Of a stretch of 43,980 nucleotides of DNA, positions 36,409-43,980 are shown one piece after another. Numbering within the stretch: the first letter of the stretch is position 1; each line of letters starts with the position of its first letter. The notes below the pieces were generated by a model. It was not told the DNA's origin, did no database searches, and saw only the letters and a program-made list of their open reading frames with translations. Origin of the DNA: Candidatus Bathyarchaeota archaeon (GTDB lineage: Archaea > Thermoproteota > Bathyarchaeia > Bathyarchaeales > Bathycorpusculaceae); contig JADGNF010000035.1 in assembly GCA_017883615.1 (NCBI GenBank), forward strand, positions 1 through 43,980. Reading direction: 5' to 3'. The position numbers were made by a program, and so were the translations under genes.

Positions 36409-36642
36409 ATGGTTAATTGGAGAGAAGACATCGAATTCGTTTATGCTTTGTTCATGCTTGTTTCATGCATAGTTGTATTCTTCGTTTTGTATGACTCAAT
36501 GAGTTTAACGTTGGCAGCAGTAGCAACCGGTGTGATTGTTTTGGTGGAAGCCGCAATTGCATTCGCAGCTCTTGAAAGCGACACAGCCATAGCCAACTGG
36601 GAAAAACTCGGAAAGAAAGAACATGAAAGTGAGCAAAAATGA
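36409..36642 (+). CDS. Small two-TM membrane protein
   Basis: This 77-residue protein has two hydrophobic segments (about residues 8-28 and 32-55) joined by a very short loop, then a charged cytoplasmic tail ending KKEHESEQK. I choose ATG 36409 over the adjacent TTG at 36406; the AGGTGAT at 36398-36404 is the ribosome binding site. Its stop overlaps the start of the next gene (ATGA), so the two are translated together. No family is recognised; a membrane adaptor for the downstream protein is a reasonable guess. Confidence 0.6.
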   Translation: MVNWREDIEFVYALFMLVSCIVVFFVLYDSMSLTLAAVATGVIVLVEAAIAFAALESDTAIANWEKLGKKEHESEQK

Positions 36643-37565
36643 CGCGCCCCCAATCGAAACGGAAACTTCAAAACCCATTCGAAAAACCATCTGTACAAAT
36701 CTCTTCGAAGGCCTATCTGAGAAACTTTGGAAAAGGCAAACTCAAATTTGCCGACGACGCCTTAAAGTTTTACCAATATAGTGGGCGATTGACAAAAAAG
36801 AAATCGCTGGCTAAACTAATTCCGTTAGCTAAAATTGAGAAGGTAACTTTGGTTTCAGACGAGTTAAACGTCACTTCACAAGGAATAACCGAAAGCTTTG
36901 TCATCAATGATAAAGCATTCGCCCAATTCGTCTACCTAAAAACAAACGAGTTTCTCTCGCAGCCTGAAGAATCAAAAGAAACGCAGATACCTTCCACAAT
37001 CGAAGCTCCCGCGAAACAACAGCTTGGACAAACATTAGACGTTTCCCTCTCAATAATTGATTCATTATTTGACGGCCTCATGTGTTTGCAAGGGCGAGTA
37101 GACTGGAATCAAATCACTAACCATGTAAAAAAATGCGAAGAGGACGTCAAAAAAATCGACAAAGGCATCTTTGAAACCGTCAACTTGGATTTTTCGGTGC
37201 TTTTCTCAGCCGCTACCGATCGTAATGTAGAATCGTTTACTAAAGAAGCCTATCGCCTCTTGGAAACGCTTCATGGAAACTTCCAAGGAATAGCGCCAGA
37301 ATTCCTGAAAGCAAAAAATGTTGTCACGTCATACTACATTCTAAATGACACCATGTTAGCCGTGGTCGTAGGCGACGCGAACGTCGAGGATGAACTAACC
37401 CAGCTATCTCTCTCGCTTGCTGATTTGTCAAAAGATATCGGCTTGAACGCGATAGAAGTTGTTAATCCTATGAATAATCTGCTTAAGGAGAAACAAAAAG
37501 ACCCCTATGCCCAAGAAGCTAGGGCAATTTTCAAAAAACAGGTAGCAGCTGCAATGGCAAAGTAA
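36639..37565 (+). CDS. Hypothetical protein with a possible PH-like domain
   Basis: This is a 308-residue cytoplasmic protein. Residues 25-105 alternate short strands and end in a helix (KLKFADDALKFYQYSGRL, then IPLAKIEKVTLVSDELNV, FVINDKAFAQFVYLKTNEF), a pattern typical of bacterial PH/GRAM-like folds. This is inferred from pattern, not from a family match. Residues 110-125 form a linker. Residues 130-300 are mostly helical with a small alpha/beta part (NVVTSYYILNDTMLAVVVGDA). It is coupled to the two-TM gene by a 4-bp overlap and sits directly upstream of the anchored coiled-coil protein and the FtsZ/tubulin-like gene. Confidence 0.6.
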   Translation: MTRPQSKRKLQNPFEKPSVQISSKAYLRNFGKGKLKFADDALKFYQYSGRLTKKKSLAKLIPLAKIEKVTLVSDELNVTSQGITESFVINDKAFAQFVYLKTNEFLSQPEESKETQIPSTIEAPAKQQLGQTLDVSLSIIDSLFDGLMCLQGRVDWNQITNHVKKCEEDVKKIDKGIFETVNLDFSVLFSAATDRNVESFTKEAYRLLETLHGNFQGIAPEFLKAKNVVTSYYILNDTMLAVVVGDANVEDELTQLSLSLADLSKDIGLNAIEVVNPMNNLLKEKQKDPYAQEARAIFKKQVAAAMAK

Positions 37566-37663: not shown

Positions 37664-38629
37664 ATGAAAAGAGGAATGTTAGCCATATTAGTCGTAAGTC
37701 TATTATTACTTGTACCCATTCTTTCAATAACACAAGTGAAAGCACAAACAACCGGAAATTGGATAACCACCTCCGCAATAACCGACCGGAATACTGGTCA
37801 AGCCCTAGATCCAAACGGAATTCCTGCTGGGGCAGACCTAGAAATATCCATAACAATCCAAGTAACAACTTCCAGCCCATCTACCACTCTAAAACTTTCC
37901 ACATCAATGGATCATCCTTCTCAAGGTAACTATTGGGAGATTCACGGAAGCTACGGCGGCATCGACACATCCACATACAACCCCAACACACAATCCGTGA
38001 GCTTTAAGCAAACCATTGGGACACTCACAATATCTTGCTTTGGTAAAATAAAACAAGACATAACTCAAACCGTAATTTCGGGAATAACTTTCGACAAGGC
38101 AGTCGCTAAAGACCTCGTTACACTCACTGACCAGACAAACAATCAGCTGGACAAAATTAGCGTAAACATCGTGGACGCTGCCATCACCGACTTCTCCAAC
38201 AAGTTGGCTTCCGCTAGAGCAGAGTACCAGACCTTGAGCGATCAAGCCATAGACCAAGCTTACCTTAACCTTTACCAAACCGTAATTAACCAAGCCACAA
38301 GCCAAGCAAACTCCGGACTAGTGGACAGCGCCATCGGCACCCTAGACCAGCTTTCACAAGCCGAAAGCGCAGCCGCGCCTTCCACAACAAGCACTCCTAT
38401 AGAGGCTACTCTATTTCTGCCAGCCGTAATTGTGTTAGTAATTATCGTCGTTTTGGTCGCCTTCTTGATGGTGAAAGCCCGCGGAAAAGTAAGCTATGAC
38501 AAATTGGTAATTGAAGATCAAATCAAAGACTTAGAAGGGTTAACTCTCCGAGCCTCAAAAGTCGACAGAAACTTAACTGTAAGCTTGGAGAGCATAAAGG
38601 ACAGGTTGAAGAACCTGGTTGAGGTGTAA
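37664..38629 (+). CDS. Signal-anchored surface protein with cytoplasmic coiled-coil tail
   Basis: In this 321-residue protein, a signal peptide (residues 1-27, likely cut after VKA) is followed by a strand-rich, Ser/Thr-rich outer domain (about 30-145) and a helical outer stalk (145-235). A short Ser/Thr linker leads to one membrane segment (249-270) and a 50-residue cytoplasmic tail predicted as coiled coil (VIEDQIKDLEGLTLRASKV). I know no named family. Its stop lies 5 bp before the probable ACG start of the FtsZ/tubulin-like gene, and the end of this gene supplies that gene's Shine-Dalgarno. An anchor linking envelope and filament is a natural hypothesis. Confidence 0.75.
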   Translation: MKRGMLAILVVSLLLLVPILSITQVKAQTTGNWITTSAITDRNTGQALDPNGIPAGADLEISITIQVTTSSPSTTLKLSTSMDHPSQGNYWEIHGSYGGIDTSTYNPNTQSVSFKQTIGTLTISCFGKIKQDITQTVISGITFDKAVAKDLVTLTDQTNNQLDKISVNIVDAAITDFSNKLASARAEYQTLSDQAIDQAYLNLYQTVINQATSQANSGLVDSAIGTLDQLSQAESAAAPSTTSTPIEATLFLPAVIVLVIIVVLVAFLMVKARGKVSYDKLVIEDQIKDLEGLTLRASKVDRNLTVSLESIKDRLKNLVEV

Positions 38630-38634
38630 ACGCT

Positions 38635-41328
38635 ACGAGACCATATCAAAACACAGTTCAAGTAATCGGTCTTGGATCAGCAGGAACAAACATCGTAGAA
38701 GTCTTCATGACTAGCAAGAAAACCATGGAAATGCTAGAGAGCGACATCTCACGCGTTTCACTTCTAGCTATCGACATCGCGGATCCTGAAATCAGAGCAC
38801 TACTAGAAACCAACGAACAAGTCATGAAGGCCATGGTTAAAGCAGGCATTCCAAAAGAACGGATGCGTTTAGTTGCACAATCAATAAAGTTCCCCACCGC
38901 CGAAACAATGTTTGACTTCGTCAATCTAAAATTCAACGAATATCTAGTAAACGAAGGCGCCAAAATGGGTGATTTTACCCCTTGGTTAACTTCCACAATG
39001 GCTATACCTCCTATGGCTGGAGGTGCTGGCAGAAGAAGAGCACTGGCTAAAGCCATCTACGCTTTAAACTACTACCAACTTGGCATCGTGAAGAGCGCAA
39101 TTAACACTTTCAAAGAACAGGCCTTCTCCTCAATCGTCACGCCAACAGTAGTTTTGTTTTTCGGTCTAGGCGGGGGAACTGGAAGTGGCGTATTCTTTGA
39201 CTTCGCAAAACACCTCCGGAAGGTCCTCGGCTCCAGCGTGCCAATAATTGCATTTGTAATTTCTCCATGCGGTGGCGACGATCCTCCAGCGAAAGGATGC
39301 TCATCATTTACTGCCATGAACGAACTTTCATTGTTCTTGAACAAGGATTACAACGAATACATCACAAAGACGTTTGGCGAATGCTACAGAAACCCCCTCA
39401 ACGCACTGATTTACTTGCCGCTGTTACCTGCTTACTCAAAGATAGGTAACATAGTTTCTGCACGCCGAGAAATGGATGAAATGGTCGTTGACATGCTCTA
39501 TATGCTAATGGACTTCGATCTTGCAGACTTAATGGGCGGCATCGGAACCGAGGTGGGATTAGGCAACAACTTTGTACATACCCTCGGCTCAGTGAAAGTG
39601 ATGTACCCCGTTGAGGACTACATTCTTGCACTCAAGTTGTACTTCGAAAGACTAGAAATACTCTATAATCTTCGAAAAGAAAAACTAGCCATAATGGATG
39701 CGATTCGAGACATATTCATCCAGACCAATGGTGACCTTGTCGAACTCTATAGAAAATACCTCATAAAAATTGGCGAATACGTTGACGAAGAGTTTGAGAG
39801 CAGAGTCAACAATGTAATCCACAGCAATCCAAAACTAGATGAAGACTACATCCTACATGTTCGAGCAATCGAGGATCAAATGGAAGCTTGGCTCAACGAA
39901 ATAATGAAGTTCCTGACAACCATCAAGTTGATGACAAGGACCGGACCAATTGAAGAAACAATCGTTAACCTGATGCTGCGCAAAGAAGGTTCAAGAAAAA
40001 TTGACAATCTCGAAGCCTTGCTACGGTCACTTCAGAAGACACACTTAGATTTCCCGGAAAGGAAGAACGAAATATTTGAGCGGCTAAAACACTTGATACC
40101 GAGCAGCCAGATTTTCACTTTGAGGCAAAAGAGGCTCATGGAAGACTTCATGGACCTCGCTGACATGACTGAAAAGTCTCTAGCTACGCTAAAGTTTTAT
40201 GACGAAAGCAGGTACCTCACAGAAGCGGTTATTGGATTCTATGAAGTCATGCCTGAATCCGAGGCGGAACTTGCAGAATTGCGGAATATTCGGTCAGAGC
40301 TCTCTACGTTGTATCTAATGATGCAGTTAATGCTCAGGACGCCATCTGACGAAAGAAAGATGATAGATGAACACATGACGTACTTAAACGAAGTAAAATC
40401 CATATTCCTCATGAAAAAATCTGATGCTGAAAACGGACTGCTACTTGTTCAGGAAGCTATTCAACGCAAAGATTTCGATAAGAGGAAGGCCGAACGTGAT
40501 CTTAAGAGAACTTTCGGTTCCAAGCGCTATGCCACAGAACAACATACAAGTGTTGATCGCGACTTAAAGAGGCTAGAAGAAGAACAAGCAATGGCACTTG
40601 ATGAACTTAACCGGATGGATCAGGTTGTTATGCTTTATGATGTGCTTGCGACTCAGATTGACCCAGTATCGGAATATCGGAAGATGCTCAATAAGATTGC
40701 AGACTTAACTGAAGAGTACAACAACAAGATTTCTGACATTATTCAGCCCAAGAAGTACTTTGAGCGTTCAACAGAGCTTACCCAAGCAGAGCAAATGAAG
40801 ATCATTTTCAAGATTCTAATGGAACAAGAGGACACATTGACTAAGAAAGCGATTCTTAAGCAGGTCCTAGACATGGCACACTTCAAAGACTACATGAAGA
40901 GCCTGATACGGATTTTCAAAACACCAAGCGTTTTGGGCTTCAAGCCGACATACAAGACAGATTACCTCTGGGTTACCGTTTCCACGCCAGAAGACCTTTG
41001 GAGTGAGGACTTAACGCAGGAAATCTACACTTCTTTGGCTGGCTACGTTACCAGCGAAGTGTCACGGACTATAACAGTTCGCGTGGTCGACAGCCGGGAT
41101 GAATGGACTACCAGAATCATGGTTGTAGCGGGCAGAGGAAAACCTGAAGACATGGAAGCATTTGACGAAATGCAGTTGCTCTATACCAAATCTAGCTCTT
41201 TCGAAAGACATCTCAGCCGCTCCTACTTGCTTGAACATGGCGTCGCAGCAGTGCCGCTAATTAACGACATCAATCACAACAACAACCTTAACGGTAAGAA
41301 ACTAACCGCTTCCGATGAAAAACCTTAG
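38635..41328 (+). CDS. Large FtsZ/tubulin-superfamily GTPase with a long helical insertion
   Basis: The protein has about 897 residues from a probable ACG start. The GTPase domain holds T1 GLGSAGTN (12-19), a T2/T3 region (SLLAIDIAD; AGGAGRRRALAKA), T4 signature GLGGGTGSG (177-185) and a T7 loop DFDLADL (293-299) equivalent to NVDFADV of FtsZ, keeping the aspartates that drive GTP hydrolysis across a filament. About 430 mostly helical, charged residues follow (324-764). Then comes a segment resembling the FtsZ C-terminal domain (776-835: YLWVTVSTPEDLW...RIMVVAGRG). The first canonical ATG (38707) would delete T1 and is not the start. FtsZ is about 360-400 residues, so this is far larger. Its closest described relatives are probably the divergent long tubulin-like/FtsZ-like families of bacteria and archaea. 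Confidence 0.85.
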   Translation, partial: TRPYQNTVQVIGLGSAGTNIVEVFMTSKKTMEMLESDISRVSLLAIDIADPEIRALLETNEQVMKAMVKAGIPKERMRLVAQSIKFPTAETMFDFVNLKFNEYLVNEGAKMGDFTPWLTSTMAIPPMAGGAGRRRALAKAIYALNYYQLGIVKSAINTFKEQAFSSIVTPTVVLFFGLGGGTGSGVFFDFAKHLRKVLGSSVPIIAFVISPCGGDDPPAKGCSSFTAMNELSLFLNKDYNEYITKTFGECYRNPLNALIYLPLLPAYSKIGNIVSARREMDEMVVDMLYMLMDFDLADLMGGIGTEVGLGNNFVHTLGSVKVMYPVEDYILALKLYFERLEILYNLRKEKLAIMDAIRDIFIQTNGDLVELYRKYLIKIGEYVDEEFESRVNNVIHSNPKLDEDYILHVRAIEDQMEAWLNEIMKFLTTIKLMTRTGPIEETIVNLMLRKEGSRKIDNLEALLRSLQKTHLDFPERKNEIFERLKHLIPSSQIFTLRQKRLMEDFMDLADMTEKSLATLKFYDESRYLTEAVIGFYEVMPESEAELAELRNIRSELSTLYLMMQLMLRTPSDERKMIDEHMTYLNEVKSIFLMKKSDAENGLLLVQEAIQRKDFDKRKAERDLKRTFGSKRYATEQHTSVDRDLKRLEEEQAMALDELNRMDQVVMLYDVLATQIDPVSEYRKMLNKIADLTEEYNNKISDIIQPKKYFERSTELTQAEQMKIIFKILMEQEDTLTKKAILKQVLDMAHFKDYMKSLIRIFKTPSVLGFKPTYKTDYLWVTVSTPEDLWSEDLTQEIYTSLAGYVTSEVSRTITVRVVDSRDEWTTRIMVVAGRGKPEDMEAFDEMQLLYTKSSSFERHLSRSYLLEHGVAAVPLINDINHNNNLNGKKLTASDEKP

Positions 41329-41331
41329 TGG

Positions 41332-42459
41332 CTAATCAGTTAAGACCTTTATGAGGTCTTGCCACTCTTTTTCTTTTATGTAACCGTTTTTCTCCGCGTA
41401 AACTTTTATTTCCTTTGCTTTCTTATCTGCTGACTCAACCATCTCAGCCAAGTCAAAACCTCCAACAAACAAGATGAGGTCTATTCGGTCGCTCAAATCC
41501 TCAACATATATGGGTTCGCTCACGTGGACAGACTTGAGACTTGTTTTTTCATTAAACCATTCTTCAACCCAAAATTCGATTTGGCTTTGTGAAAGTTTCT
41601 CTTTCAGATGGCGTGGTGCACGGACAAGGACGTAAAGCATGGTCGCCGTGGACATGTCGAACTGGATAAAGGGTCTGATCAATGTGCTGTCAAGTATGTT
41701 TTTGAATGAACCGTAGATTTTTAGGCTGGCTCCGGTGGCTACAAGTGCGGTGAACATTTTAAGATTAAATGATTTGGATAACTCGAGAAACTCTTGATTG
41801 AATTCTTCTTTTTCTAACGCCAACTCTATGACGTAGTTAAGAACGCGGTTTCCTTTGAGGACTGAGCCTTTTCTATCTACGCCGACGTAGTTTTCGAGGG
41901 CTTCTCTTTCTATCAGGATTTGTGTGAGCCCGTTTGTCATGCATTTTGCCATGGACCAAAGTGTATTGAATTGGGCATCCGCTGGCTGAAGATGAGACGG
42001 TACAATTGCGAATGCTACGGAATTTACATTCCCCTCTTGGAAGCGGGCAGTTAAGTCAGGTAATAGAGCACTCCCCACCCCTTCCCATAAAGATGCCACC
42101 ATAATGGCTCCATATAGTTCGTCGATGGGTTTGCTTTTCAACTTCTCAACGATCGCGTCGTGTTCTGCGATGTATTTTTGGACGTTGAACCAGTAGTGGG
42201 TATCAGCTTTTTCGTCTATACCAATGGTTTCGTTGTTTTCTTTGGTTGTTTTTTTCGATTTGGATTTTCCTTGTTTGGTTTTTTGTACGAAAAATTTTAG
42301 GAGTTCTTCGTTTTCGTTTATGTCGGCGCTTTTGAGGAGAATTTGAGAAGAATAGTCGCCGATTGAAATTATTGCGCGCTGAGGAAACATTGGTTTTAGC
42401 ATTGATATGTGTTTTTGTATACTAGCGTTTAAGTCAAGAGTCACTTTTTCAGCGGACAT
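41332..42459 (-). CDS. Degenerate FtsZ/tubulin-fold protein, probable partner of the large GTPase
   Basis: This 375-residue protein follows the FtsZ order with degraded motifs. A T1-like strand-turn, AIISIGDYSSQIL (29-41), has lost the glycine loop. A T4-like VASLWEGVGSALLPDL (121-136) stands where GGGTGSG would be. These are followed by AFAIVPSHLQP, a conserved-type helix (NTLWSMAKCMTNGLTQILIE), a T7-like region (SFNLKMFTALVATG) lacking the aspartates, and a C-terminal-domain-like segment (MLYVLVRAPRHL...IDLILFVGGF, 274-334). Residues 60-85 are a Lys-rich linker. It probably cannot hydrolyse GTP. It is convergent with the large GTPase, 3 bp apart. The homology is my inference from motif order and should be tested by structure prediction. 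Confidence 0.65.
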   Translation of the reverse strand: MSAEKVTLDLNASIQKHISMLKPMFPQRAIISIGDYSSQILLKSADINENEELLKFFVQKTKQGKSKSKKTTKENNETIGIDEKADTHYWFNVQKYIAEHDAIVEKLKSKPIDELYGAIMVASLWEGVGSALLPDLTARFQEGNVNSVAFAIVPSHLQPADAQFNTLWSMAKCMTNGLTQILIEREALENYVGVDRKGSVLKGNRVLNYVIELALEKEEFNQEFLELSKSFNLKMFTALVATGASLKIYGSFKNILDSTLIRPFIQFDMSTATMLYVLVRAPRHLKEKLSQSQIEFWVEEWFNEKTSLKSVHVSEPIYVEDLSDRIDLILFVGGFDLAEMVESADKKAKEIKVYAEKNGYIKEKEWQDLIKVLTD

Positions 42460-42522: not shown

Positions 42523-43980
42523 TTGGCCTCAGAGAAGAAACGGTTTAGAGATCATTTCAAGTTAGGAAAATCCAAAGAGCCTAAGGAACCTCAGGAATCC
42601 AAAGCTGAACCAGACCAATCGACGCCGCTAAAGAAGCAGCGCAAGTCTTACTTAGACTCCCTTAGGGACGTTACTGTTGGGTCCTACGAGAAACGCATGC
42701 AGAAGGAAAACAAAGACTTAGCCAACGAGGGTAGAGGGGCTCGAATCGCAGCGTTTGTTTTGACTTTAATAAGCATGGCGCTTGTTATGTCGTTAATTCC
42801 CTTTTTACCGCAGCCTTTACCGATTTTGGTAGCTGTATTGATTGCGTTTGCGGTTTACTTTAGCCCTGCGGTTGGCATGTCTGTGGGTTCTCTTTTCATC
42901 GTTTTTAGCATTCTGTATCAATTGTCCCTAGTTGATTTCATCGCAATGCTCGGTTCAACTATGGTTCGTGTGTTGTTCATTTCATTGTTAATTTTCTTCT
43001 TTGTGGCGCTTGCCATTCGTTTCCGAACTTACGAAAACGCTATAGGAATAAACCTGGGCATAATCGCAGCTGTACTGTTGTTTTCCAATTTCACCTTCTT
43101 TATGGCAATTCCGCTGCTTTTGACCGTGGCGATTCTTTTCAAGAGAACGCAGGCGGGATTGGCTTTCGGTTATTATCTAATGATTTCCGTGCCGATTATG
43201 GTGATGCAGTACTTCACTCACATCCTGACGATAACCCGCACGGATTTCTGGAATGACCCAACAGCTGTTACTCCAATCTATACTTCCTTATCCTCAGCTT
43301 TTACGAGTGCACAAACCGGGGTTGCCCATTTCAAACTATTTGATTTATCGCAGACGCTAGTATCGATTGGCAACAATGTCATTGAGGTACCGCCTGTTCA
43401 ATCTCACACTGTTCTACAGGCAGCGAACCAGTACGTTAACTCGTTCCCGGGTGTGGTTTTACTTATTGTGATTGTTGGGGGTTTCGTTTGGGCTATTTCA
43501 TTTATTTTGCCTTGGCTTACAAGTAACCTTAATTTGAGAAAGGGTGGAGTCGTTTCCCCGATTTTAGCTGCTGCGGGCTTAACTGCGTTGTTTTTCTTGT
43601 TAGCGTCTTTTCTTCAGGGTCCGCTGTCCTTTTCGATGAAAGTTAGCTCTACAAACATGGTGCTTGGGGTTTTGTCTTCGTTCGCTTTTACAATTCCACT
43701 TGCCATGCTTAACTTTGCGCCTAAAAGGCGCGAGGAAACCGAAGAAAATGTCGGGACAATAACAAGCAAAGTTGAAGGTCTAATGACGAAGGTATCAGCT
43801 TTTGAAGATACAATGGGAAAAGTCAAAGGCCATGTGCCGGTAGATGTACGTGATTCGGAAATCAGGTTGAACTTGATCAAAGATCGACTCGCTGCCTTTC
43901 TGGGTCAAGTGCAGGATCAAAGGCTCAGTCTACCTGAGACTGTTAGGATGCTTGAAGAGTTGAAAGTTAATTTGGGCCAA
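42523..43980 (+). CDS. Polytopic membrane protein with cytoplasmic coiled-coil C-terminus (runs off window)
   Basis: The frame is open for 486 codons to the window end, from a TTG at 42523 (the nearest upstream stop is TAA at 42502). Residues 1-72 are charged and cytoplasmic (KKRFRDHFKLGKSKEPKEP). About six to seven membrane segments (76-232) follow, then an outer loop of about 75 residues (235-308) and about three more segments (310-397). A cytoplasmic, heptad-like region (400-486+) has KVEGLMTKVSAFEDTMGKV and RLNLIKDRLAAFLGQVQDQ. No transporter motif is recognised. The C-terminal part resembles in style the cytoplasmic tail of the protein at 37664, so both may contact the tubulin-like filament (inference). 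It is divergent from the degenerate FtsZ-fold gene. Confidence 0.75.
   Translation, partial: MASEKKRFRDHFKLGKSKEPKEPQESKAEPDQSTPLKKQRKSYLDSLRDVTVGSYEKRMQKENKDLANEGRGARIAAFVLTLISMALVMSLIPFLPQPLPILVAVLIAFAVYFSPAVGMSVGSLFIVFSILYQLSLVDFIAMLGSTMVRVLFISLLIFFFVALAIRFRTYENAIGINLGIIAAVLLFSNFTFFMAIPLLLTVAILFKRTQAGLAFGYYLMISVPIMVMQYFTHILTITRTDFWNDPTAVTPIYTSLSSAFTSAQTGVAHFKLFDLSQTLVSIGNNVIEVPPVQSHTVLQAANQYVNSFPGVVLLIVIVGGFVWAISFILPWLTSNLNLRKGGVVSPILAAAGLTALFFLLASFLQGPLSFSMKVSSTNMVLGVLSSFAFTIPLAMLNFAPKRREETEENVGTITSKVEGLMTKVSAFEDTMGKVKGHVPVDVRDSEIRLNLIKDRLAAFLGQVQDQRLSLPETVRMLEELKVNLGQ

Follow-up and report, generated by a model that had tools for sequence, protein, structure and literature searches.

What does an archaeon do with a tubulin-type GTPase of 897 residues, roughly half of which is a helical insert, and is such a protein new? 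This question was raised by a sequence-only reading of the window, that is, of the whole stretch of 43,980 nucleotides of contig JADGNF010000035.1 from a Candidatus Bathyarchaeota archaeon (assembly GCA_017883615.1). We followed it up by comparing the gene, its predicted protein and its neighbors with relatives from other genomes.

The GTPase gene and its family

The gene and its GTP-related loops are located as follows.

38635..41328, + strand: giant GTPase of the FtsZl1 (Tubulin_2) type, 897 aa (Pfam Tubulin_2, relatives, AlphaFold2, Foldseek)
38665..38691, + strand: T1 loop IGLGSAGTN, residues 11-19 (alignment of 35 sequences)
39163..39189, + strand: T4 signature GLGGGTGSG, residues 177-185 (alignment of 35; aligned with CetZ)
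39517..39528, + strand: T7 loop DLAD, residues 295-298 (alignment of 35; paired by profile with LDYAD of CetZ)

The frame proposed at 38635-41328 proved to be single and uninterrupted, with 897 codons plus a stop, and it is open from position 38623. The encoded protein has relatives that are 63-68% identical to it, and the relatives that carry names are Bathyarchaeota, including Candidatus Bathycorpusculum. Residues 10-211 matched the Pfam family Tubulin_2 (PF13809) with 46.6 bits and an E value of 3.7e-12, above the curated cut-off of 27, and the Pfam family Tubulin was matched below its cut-off (E 4.5e-6), in agreement with the earlier assignment of the N-terminal part to the tubulin/FtsZ type. 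The score against the canonical FtsZ equivalog, NCBIfam TIGR00065, was 14 bits and did not reach the cut-off of 295. A PDB sequence search with the single protein gave no useful match.

All four motifs named in the sequence-only reading (T1, T3, T4 and T7) were found, and their key residues are invariant across the 35 aligned relatives. These residues are G12, L13, G14, G17 and N19 in T1; G129 and G130 in T3; G177, G179-G181 and G183-G185 in T4; and D295 and D298, that is, both acids, in T7. The signature loop GGGTG(S/T)G, which reads GGGTGSG at residues 179-185, is complete in 34 of the 35 relatives and reads GGGSGSG in the other one. The GTPase is a member of the FtsZl1 (Tubulin_2) family, and this kind of protein is already known.

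Position of the helical insert

39667..40944, + strand: probable helical insert between H9 and S8, about residues 345-770 (AlphaFold2 secondary structure; lowest conservation)
40960..41142, + strand: predicted S8-H10-S9-S10 of the second domain, about residues 776-836 (AlphaFold2 secondary structure; core-level conservation)

An AlphaFold2 model of the GTPase was built on the 35-sequence alignment (pLDDT 83.9, pTM 0.74). In this model, H7 (residues 273-292) and the T7 loop (295-298, with D295 and D298) are intact, and they are followed by H8 (296-303), a strand at 314-323 (S7) and H9 from residue 326, from which helices continue to about residue 770, two of them being long (570-625 and 630-675). 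The C-terminal part is predicted to consist of a strand (778-784), a helix (791-804) and two further strands (813-819 and 825-835). The labels S7, H9 and S8-S10 were assigned from the order and spacing of the predicted secondary structure; the S8-to-S10 spacing recurs in the model of the partner protein described below (partner residues 274-333).

The long helical region that had been claimed was thus recovered in the model, at residues of about 345 to 770, but not at the claimed place. The earlier reading had it separate the core from the activation domain at H7, whereas H7, T7, H8, S7 and the beginning of H9 all precede it. That is, an insert of about 425 residues probably lies between H9 and S8, inside the second domain. 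The conservation profile agrees with this placement, since the mean share of the commonest residue was 0.748 before the insert, 0.605 within it and 0.731 in residues 766-836.

Structure prediction followed by Foldseek matched the N-terminal part of the GTPase to the folds of TubZ (3.7e-5) and FtsZ (2e-4) over about 340 columns, corresponding to the N-terminal 340 residues or so; an alignment of this length is unlikely to bridge the insert and says nothing on the last segment. Residues 1-342 also matched CetZ-like proteins of the same class in a profile comparison (E 1.2e-7), with the T7 loops paired. Profiles of FtsZ, CetZ and the partner gave no signal with the C-terminal segment, either alone or joined to the core; the scores were no better than those of shuffled and other-segment controls. 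In the model, this segment seems to supply the half of an FtsZ-type second domain that was missing. The order and spacing of its secondary structure do not contradict a packing of residues 776-835 on the core, as assumed in the earlier reading. This suggests that the published picture of an FtsZ domain, a coiled coil and a new domain is better understood as a single tubulin fold that an arm interrupts.

In one relative from another family (L068:5484-8167, on the one-contig genome G528), the GTPase gene consists of two overlapping frames. The split falls on six consecutive G in the insert and may be a frameshift, a sequencing error or a true split.

The gene module and the tubulin-fold partner

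The GTPase gene belongs to a module of four genes, encoding a bitopic anchor, the GTPase, a compact tubulin-fold partner and a polytopic coiled-coil protein of about 800 aa. In the window, the other three genes are as follows.

37664..38629, + strand: bitopic membrane protein, 321 aa, proposed anchor of the GTPase (upstream gene, alignment, hydropathy)
41332..42459, - strand: compact tubulin-fold partner, 375 aa, without T1, T4 and T7 signatures (AlphaFold2, Foldseek, profiles, loop letters)
42523..43980, + strand: polytopic membrane protein with a cytosolic coiled coil (gene cut by the contig end; TTG start guessed)

The bitopic protein is encoded immediately 5' of the GTPase in 25 of 26 loci. 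It has a signal peptide, an extracytoplasmic domain and one transmembrane segment near the C-terminus, with hydropathy peaking both at the N-terminal end and close to the C-terminus, and it ends in a tail of about 46 residues, which is the best conserved part of the alignment. The tail carries the motif EDQIKDLEGLTLRASK.DR...KDRLK and is predicted to be cytosolic. The protein matched no Pfam family. We propose that it ties the GTPase to the membrane. The earlier reading had suggested that the insert could reach the membrane; the linked anchor gene with its predicted cytosolic tail explains membrane reach better. The polytopic protein, found near the GTPase in 21 of the 26 loci, shows 6-9 hydrophobic peaks and likewise matched no Pfam family.

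The partner has a two-domain tubulin fold according to its AlphaFold2 model (pLDDT 83.4, pTM 0.84). Over its full length Foldseek matched TubZ (3.2e-15), CetZ (6.2e-14) and tubulin (1e-13), and profiles matched the Asgard tubulin AtubB2 (6.7e-7) and CetZ (6.8e-6). In all 25 sequences, however, IGEYP, (S/L)WDGVGSA and FN(V/I)K replace T1, T4 and T7, respectively. Judging from these loops, the partner probably does not bind GTP in the usual manner and probably does not activate it on a neighboring subunit. BLAST found it in 17 of the 26 loci, and profiles found it in more, including loci of other classes.

The module also occurs in other Thermoproteota. The partner gene is convergent to the GTPase gene in the window, and in five loci (L058, L068 and L072-L074) the four genes share one direction, with that of a diverged partner last; the diverged partners were recognized by profile with E values of 2.6e-8 and 1.9e-7 versus 0.007 for the best control. 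The genes that flank the module vary from genus to genus. Among its recurrent neighbors, namely the anchor, the partner and the polytopic protein, there is no vWA, GTPase, kinase, OmpA or Hsp70 protein. The sequence-only reading had mentioned neither these neighbors, in which most of the novelty lies, nor the ACG start described below. Of the new points, we consider three the strongest: a tubulin-fold partner that is GTP-blind, the module of four genes, and the start at an ACG codon.

Several variations were seen around the module. The partners of one genus (L008, L009, L010, L012, L034, L061 and L062) have a long C-terminal tail, rich in Pro/Glu and then in Lys/Arg, which brings them to about 450-506 aa in all and is missing from the partner in the window. 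Two diverged partners (L058:1953-3002 and L068:10377-11390) start with two CxxC-type pairs and are zinc-ribbon-like there. A lone diverged relative of the GTPase (L057:5950-8787) has a C-terminal zinc-ribbon-like extension and adjoins an Orc1/Cdc6 gene, with neither anchor nor partner nearby. In the window, a 308-aa protein matching no Pfam family is encoded upstream of the anchor (36639-37565, + strand), and relatives of it lie near the module only in L020 and L023.

An ACG start codon

38621..38626, + strand: GAGGTG of Shine-Dalgarno type, 8 nt ahead of the ACG; it overlaps the anchor gene's end (sequence, pairing with the 16S tail)
38635..38637, + strand: ACG start codon of the GTPase gene (19 ACG, 1 ATG and 1 TTG among 21 relatives)

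The first codon of the GTPase frame as it had been proposed, at 38635, is an ACG. In the window there is no in-frame ATG, GTG or TTG before the T1 motif, and the first ATG, at 38707, was rejected as the start, as the T1 loop would be lost. In the clade of 21 relatives, 19 have ACG at the start position, and the two exceptions have ATG (L026) and TTG (L044). Threonine codons elsewhere in the same genes are ACG in 9% of cases, and no conserved Thr column exceeds 40% ACG. Mapped on the tree, one gain and two reversions are enough.

In many of the 21 relatives, a stop codon stands in frame two or three codons ahead of the start position, so translation of the GTPase must begin at or next to the ACG. 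A candidate ribosome site also precedes it. At the window locus, pairing of the upstream region with an archaeal 16S tail was -9.5 kcal/mol, and over the 19 ACG loci the mean was -7.8 kcal/mol versus -4.7 for shuffled sequences, the site being 4-7 nt from the ACG; pairing was weak in 2 of the 19. We also considered whether ribosomes enter the GTPase frame from the anchor gene by a programmed frameshift or by readthrough. The spacers between the two genes are 4, 5 and 6 nt among relatives, which gives all three frames, and since the frame relation is not conserved, such a mechanism is ruled out as a general explanation. Judging from this comparison of relatives, the ACG at 38635 is the true start.

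A literature search found no precedent for an ACG start in archaea, which is a weak negative, most subscription papers having been outside the search. Gene finders limited to ATG, GTG or TTG truncate the GTPase through its GTP-binding loop, and this truncation may have hidden the protein. The conserved ACG start makes non-AUG initiation in archaea testable in one gene.

Distribution and relation to cell division

Whole-genome searches found the GTPase in 39 of 257 genomes of the class Bathyarchaeia and in more from other classes of Thermoproteota. Its occurrence is patchy, in that only some species of a genus carry it. A contaminating contig was rejected as an explanation of the window: another gene of the contig is 81-86% identical to its counterparts in each of the other six genomes from the genus.

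In the window's own genome, no FtsZ passed the Pfam cut-off. Among the 128 genomes of the class that are at least 90% complete, counted by hand, a strong FtsZ/CetZ match was present in 6 of 28 carriers versus 64 of 100 non-carriers (p 8e-5, uncorrected for kinship). Non-carriers of the same genus and the same family, too, have neither FtsZ nor the GTPase gene. ESCRT-III-like genes occur in carriers and non-carriers of the window's family, and all its carriers in the set have them. That most carriers lack FtsZ and have ESCRT-III-like genes is counted among the new points. Because related non-carriers also lack FtsZ and both groups have ESCRT-III-like genes, the GTPase gene is accessory and not a simple replacement of FtsZ; given its patchiness within genera as well, it is not needed for division.

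SepF is the known FtsZ anchor of archaea. In eight genomes (G000, G001-G005, G007 and G017, including the one-contig genome G005), SepF was found above its cut-off together with no canonical FtsZ match.

Possible function of the module

The family, the motifs, the partner fold, the gene module and the ACG start with its ribosome site were computed; polymerization, anchoring, capping and the cell process we infer. With middling confidence we think that the GTPase is the engine of a membrane-tethered, GTP-controlled polymer or scaffold. Bound GTP would bring subunits together head to tail, the GTP of each being activated by the T7 aspartates of its neighbor. The upstream bitopic protein may fasten the assembly to the cell membrane by its cytosolic tail, and the helical arm may stick out and connect the assembly with its neighbors or with the polytopic coiled-coil protein. 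Having kept the fold and lost the GTP motifs and T7 acids, the compact partner could serve as a GTP-blind cap, adaptor or alternating subunit. The task would be local remodeling of the membrane or envelope, or cell shape, and not that of a division ring. A gene neighborhood does not prove physical contact.

How do other explanations compare? The GTPase might be a switch that alternates between states, possibly paired with the partner as a dimer, and controls the membrane proteins through its arm with no filaments at all; we think this rather unlikely. A partner of the same fold without GTP motifs would suit a fixed heterodimer, the insert lies within the second domain, part of which faces neighbors in filaments, and the authors who described FtsZl1 left a non-filament action open. 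On the other hand, T4 and the two T7 aspartates are invariant. In known members of the tubulin superfamily, T7 works only where two subunits meet, and this speaks for longitudinal contacts at the least. A division protein that took over the role of FtsZ would agree with the absence of FtsZ above the cut-off from the window's genome, with the rarity of strong FtsZ/CetZ matches in carriers and with the retention of SepF without FtsZ. We nevertheless regard it as improbable, as species of the same genus and family divide with neither FtsZ nor the GTPase gene, all carriers of the window's own family in the set have ESCRT-III-like genes and the gene is patchy within genera.

A defense role seems more improbable still, to the point of being barely credible. 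In biological-conflict systems, tubulin-domain proteins stand alongside GTPases, Hsp70 and vWA proteins, and their tubulin domains are fused to coiled coils, sometimes with two per locus (PMC7159879). Such fusions and the patchy distribution would fit. PADLOC, however, matched none of the four proteins convincingly (14.7 bits and E 0.0068 at best), vWA proteins, GTPases and Hsp70 are missing from the recurrent neighbors, variable effectors were not seen in what is a stable module, and there is no viral relative. An origin from a phage or plasmid was likewise rejected, since no relative was found on viral contigs and the GTPase, partner and anchor had no PHROG match; a viral fold search returned long-helix artefacts and one weak match to a phage FtsZ.

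Returning to the membrane-tethered polymer or scaffold, a bolder form of it may be put forward tentatively, and we ourselves are inclined to doubt it. In this form, the module would be an ancient thermoproteotal membrane cytoskeleton of two tubulins, in which a giant catalytic subunit, its arm set into the second domain, would assemble with an obligate GTP-blind partner or be capped by it, and in which a dedicated bitopic anchor would hold the assembly at the membrane, the anchor gene's stop codon and the ribosome site being coupled to the conserved ACG start.

Comparison with known systems

The sequence-only reading rightly recognized, in this archaeon, a GTPase of the tubulin superfamily whose T7 aspartate loop is intact and which holds a large helical insert, but its statement that no archaeal system with this layout had been described does not hold. 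FtsZl1 was published in 2010 by Makarova and Koonin as an FtsZ-like domain followed by a long coiled coil and a helical C-terminus, with eight archaeal members, one of them haloarchaeal and 1051 aa long (PMC2875224). These authors did not find T6-H7 or the FtsZ-like C-terminal domain in FtsZl1, and considered that it might not form filaments (PMC2875224). Later authors called the family FtsZ-like/Tubulin_2 (PMC9871819), and it was noted in two Sulfolobales (PMC9723716). Our literature search found no experimental study of any FtsZl1 protein, though the sequences have been known since 2010. The module gives handles for one, namely an anchor candidate whose short tail is conserved, a tubulin-fold partner lacking the GTP site and a candidate membrane receptor.

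The GTPase of the window shares with FtsZl1 a Tubulin_2 match above the cut-off, an FtsZ-like N-terminus followed by a long helical and then a C-terminal region (here 897 aa, with helices from residue 326 to about 770), a family size of about 900-1050 aa, a patchy occurrence in archaea and linkage to membrane proteins. It differs in its recognizable T7. The C-terminal domain was described in 2010 as unlike FtsZ, whereas the AlphaFold2 model predicts the FtsZ-like order S8-H10-S9-S10. FtsZl1 operons have vWA, kinase, GTPase and OmpA neighbors, whereas an anchor, a tubulin-fold partner and a polytopic coiled-coil protein are found here. The Sulfolobales type also has a Tubulin_2 domain and a long helical part, in FtsZ-poor Thermoproteota. 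Its member in the 2010 paper, SSO1376, probably resembles our L070 and L069. Unlike the window's clade, these two proteins have 1022-1060 aa, hydrophobic N-termini and only local similarity to it (E about 1e-6 to 1e-9), and neither anchor nor partner was seen next to their genes.

TubZ, CetZ, FtsZ and tubulin share their fold with the N-terminal 340 residues or so of the GTPase and with the whole partner. Their second domain is compact, however, whereas that of the GTPase appears to hold the insert of about 425 residues, and unlike them the partner has no GTP motifs or T7 acids. As in BtubA/BtubB and alpha/beta tubulin, two tubulin-fold proteins are encoded together. In those pairs both subunits bind GTP and are of similar size; in contrast, the present genes encode one giant, presumably catalytic protein and one compact protein without GTP motifs. 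If the two-tubulin reading is true, this would be a tubulin pair that evolved apart from alpha/beta tubulin, and one in which ACG initiation was kept through the divergence of a family.
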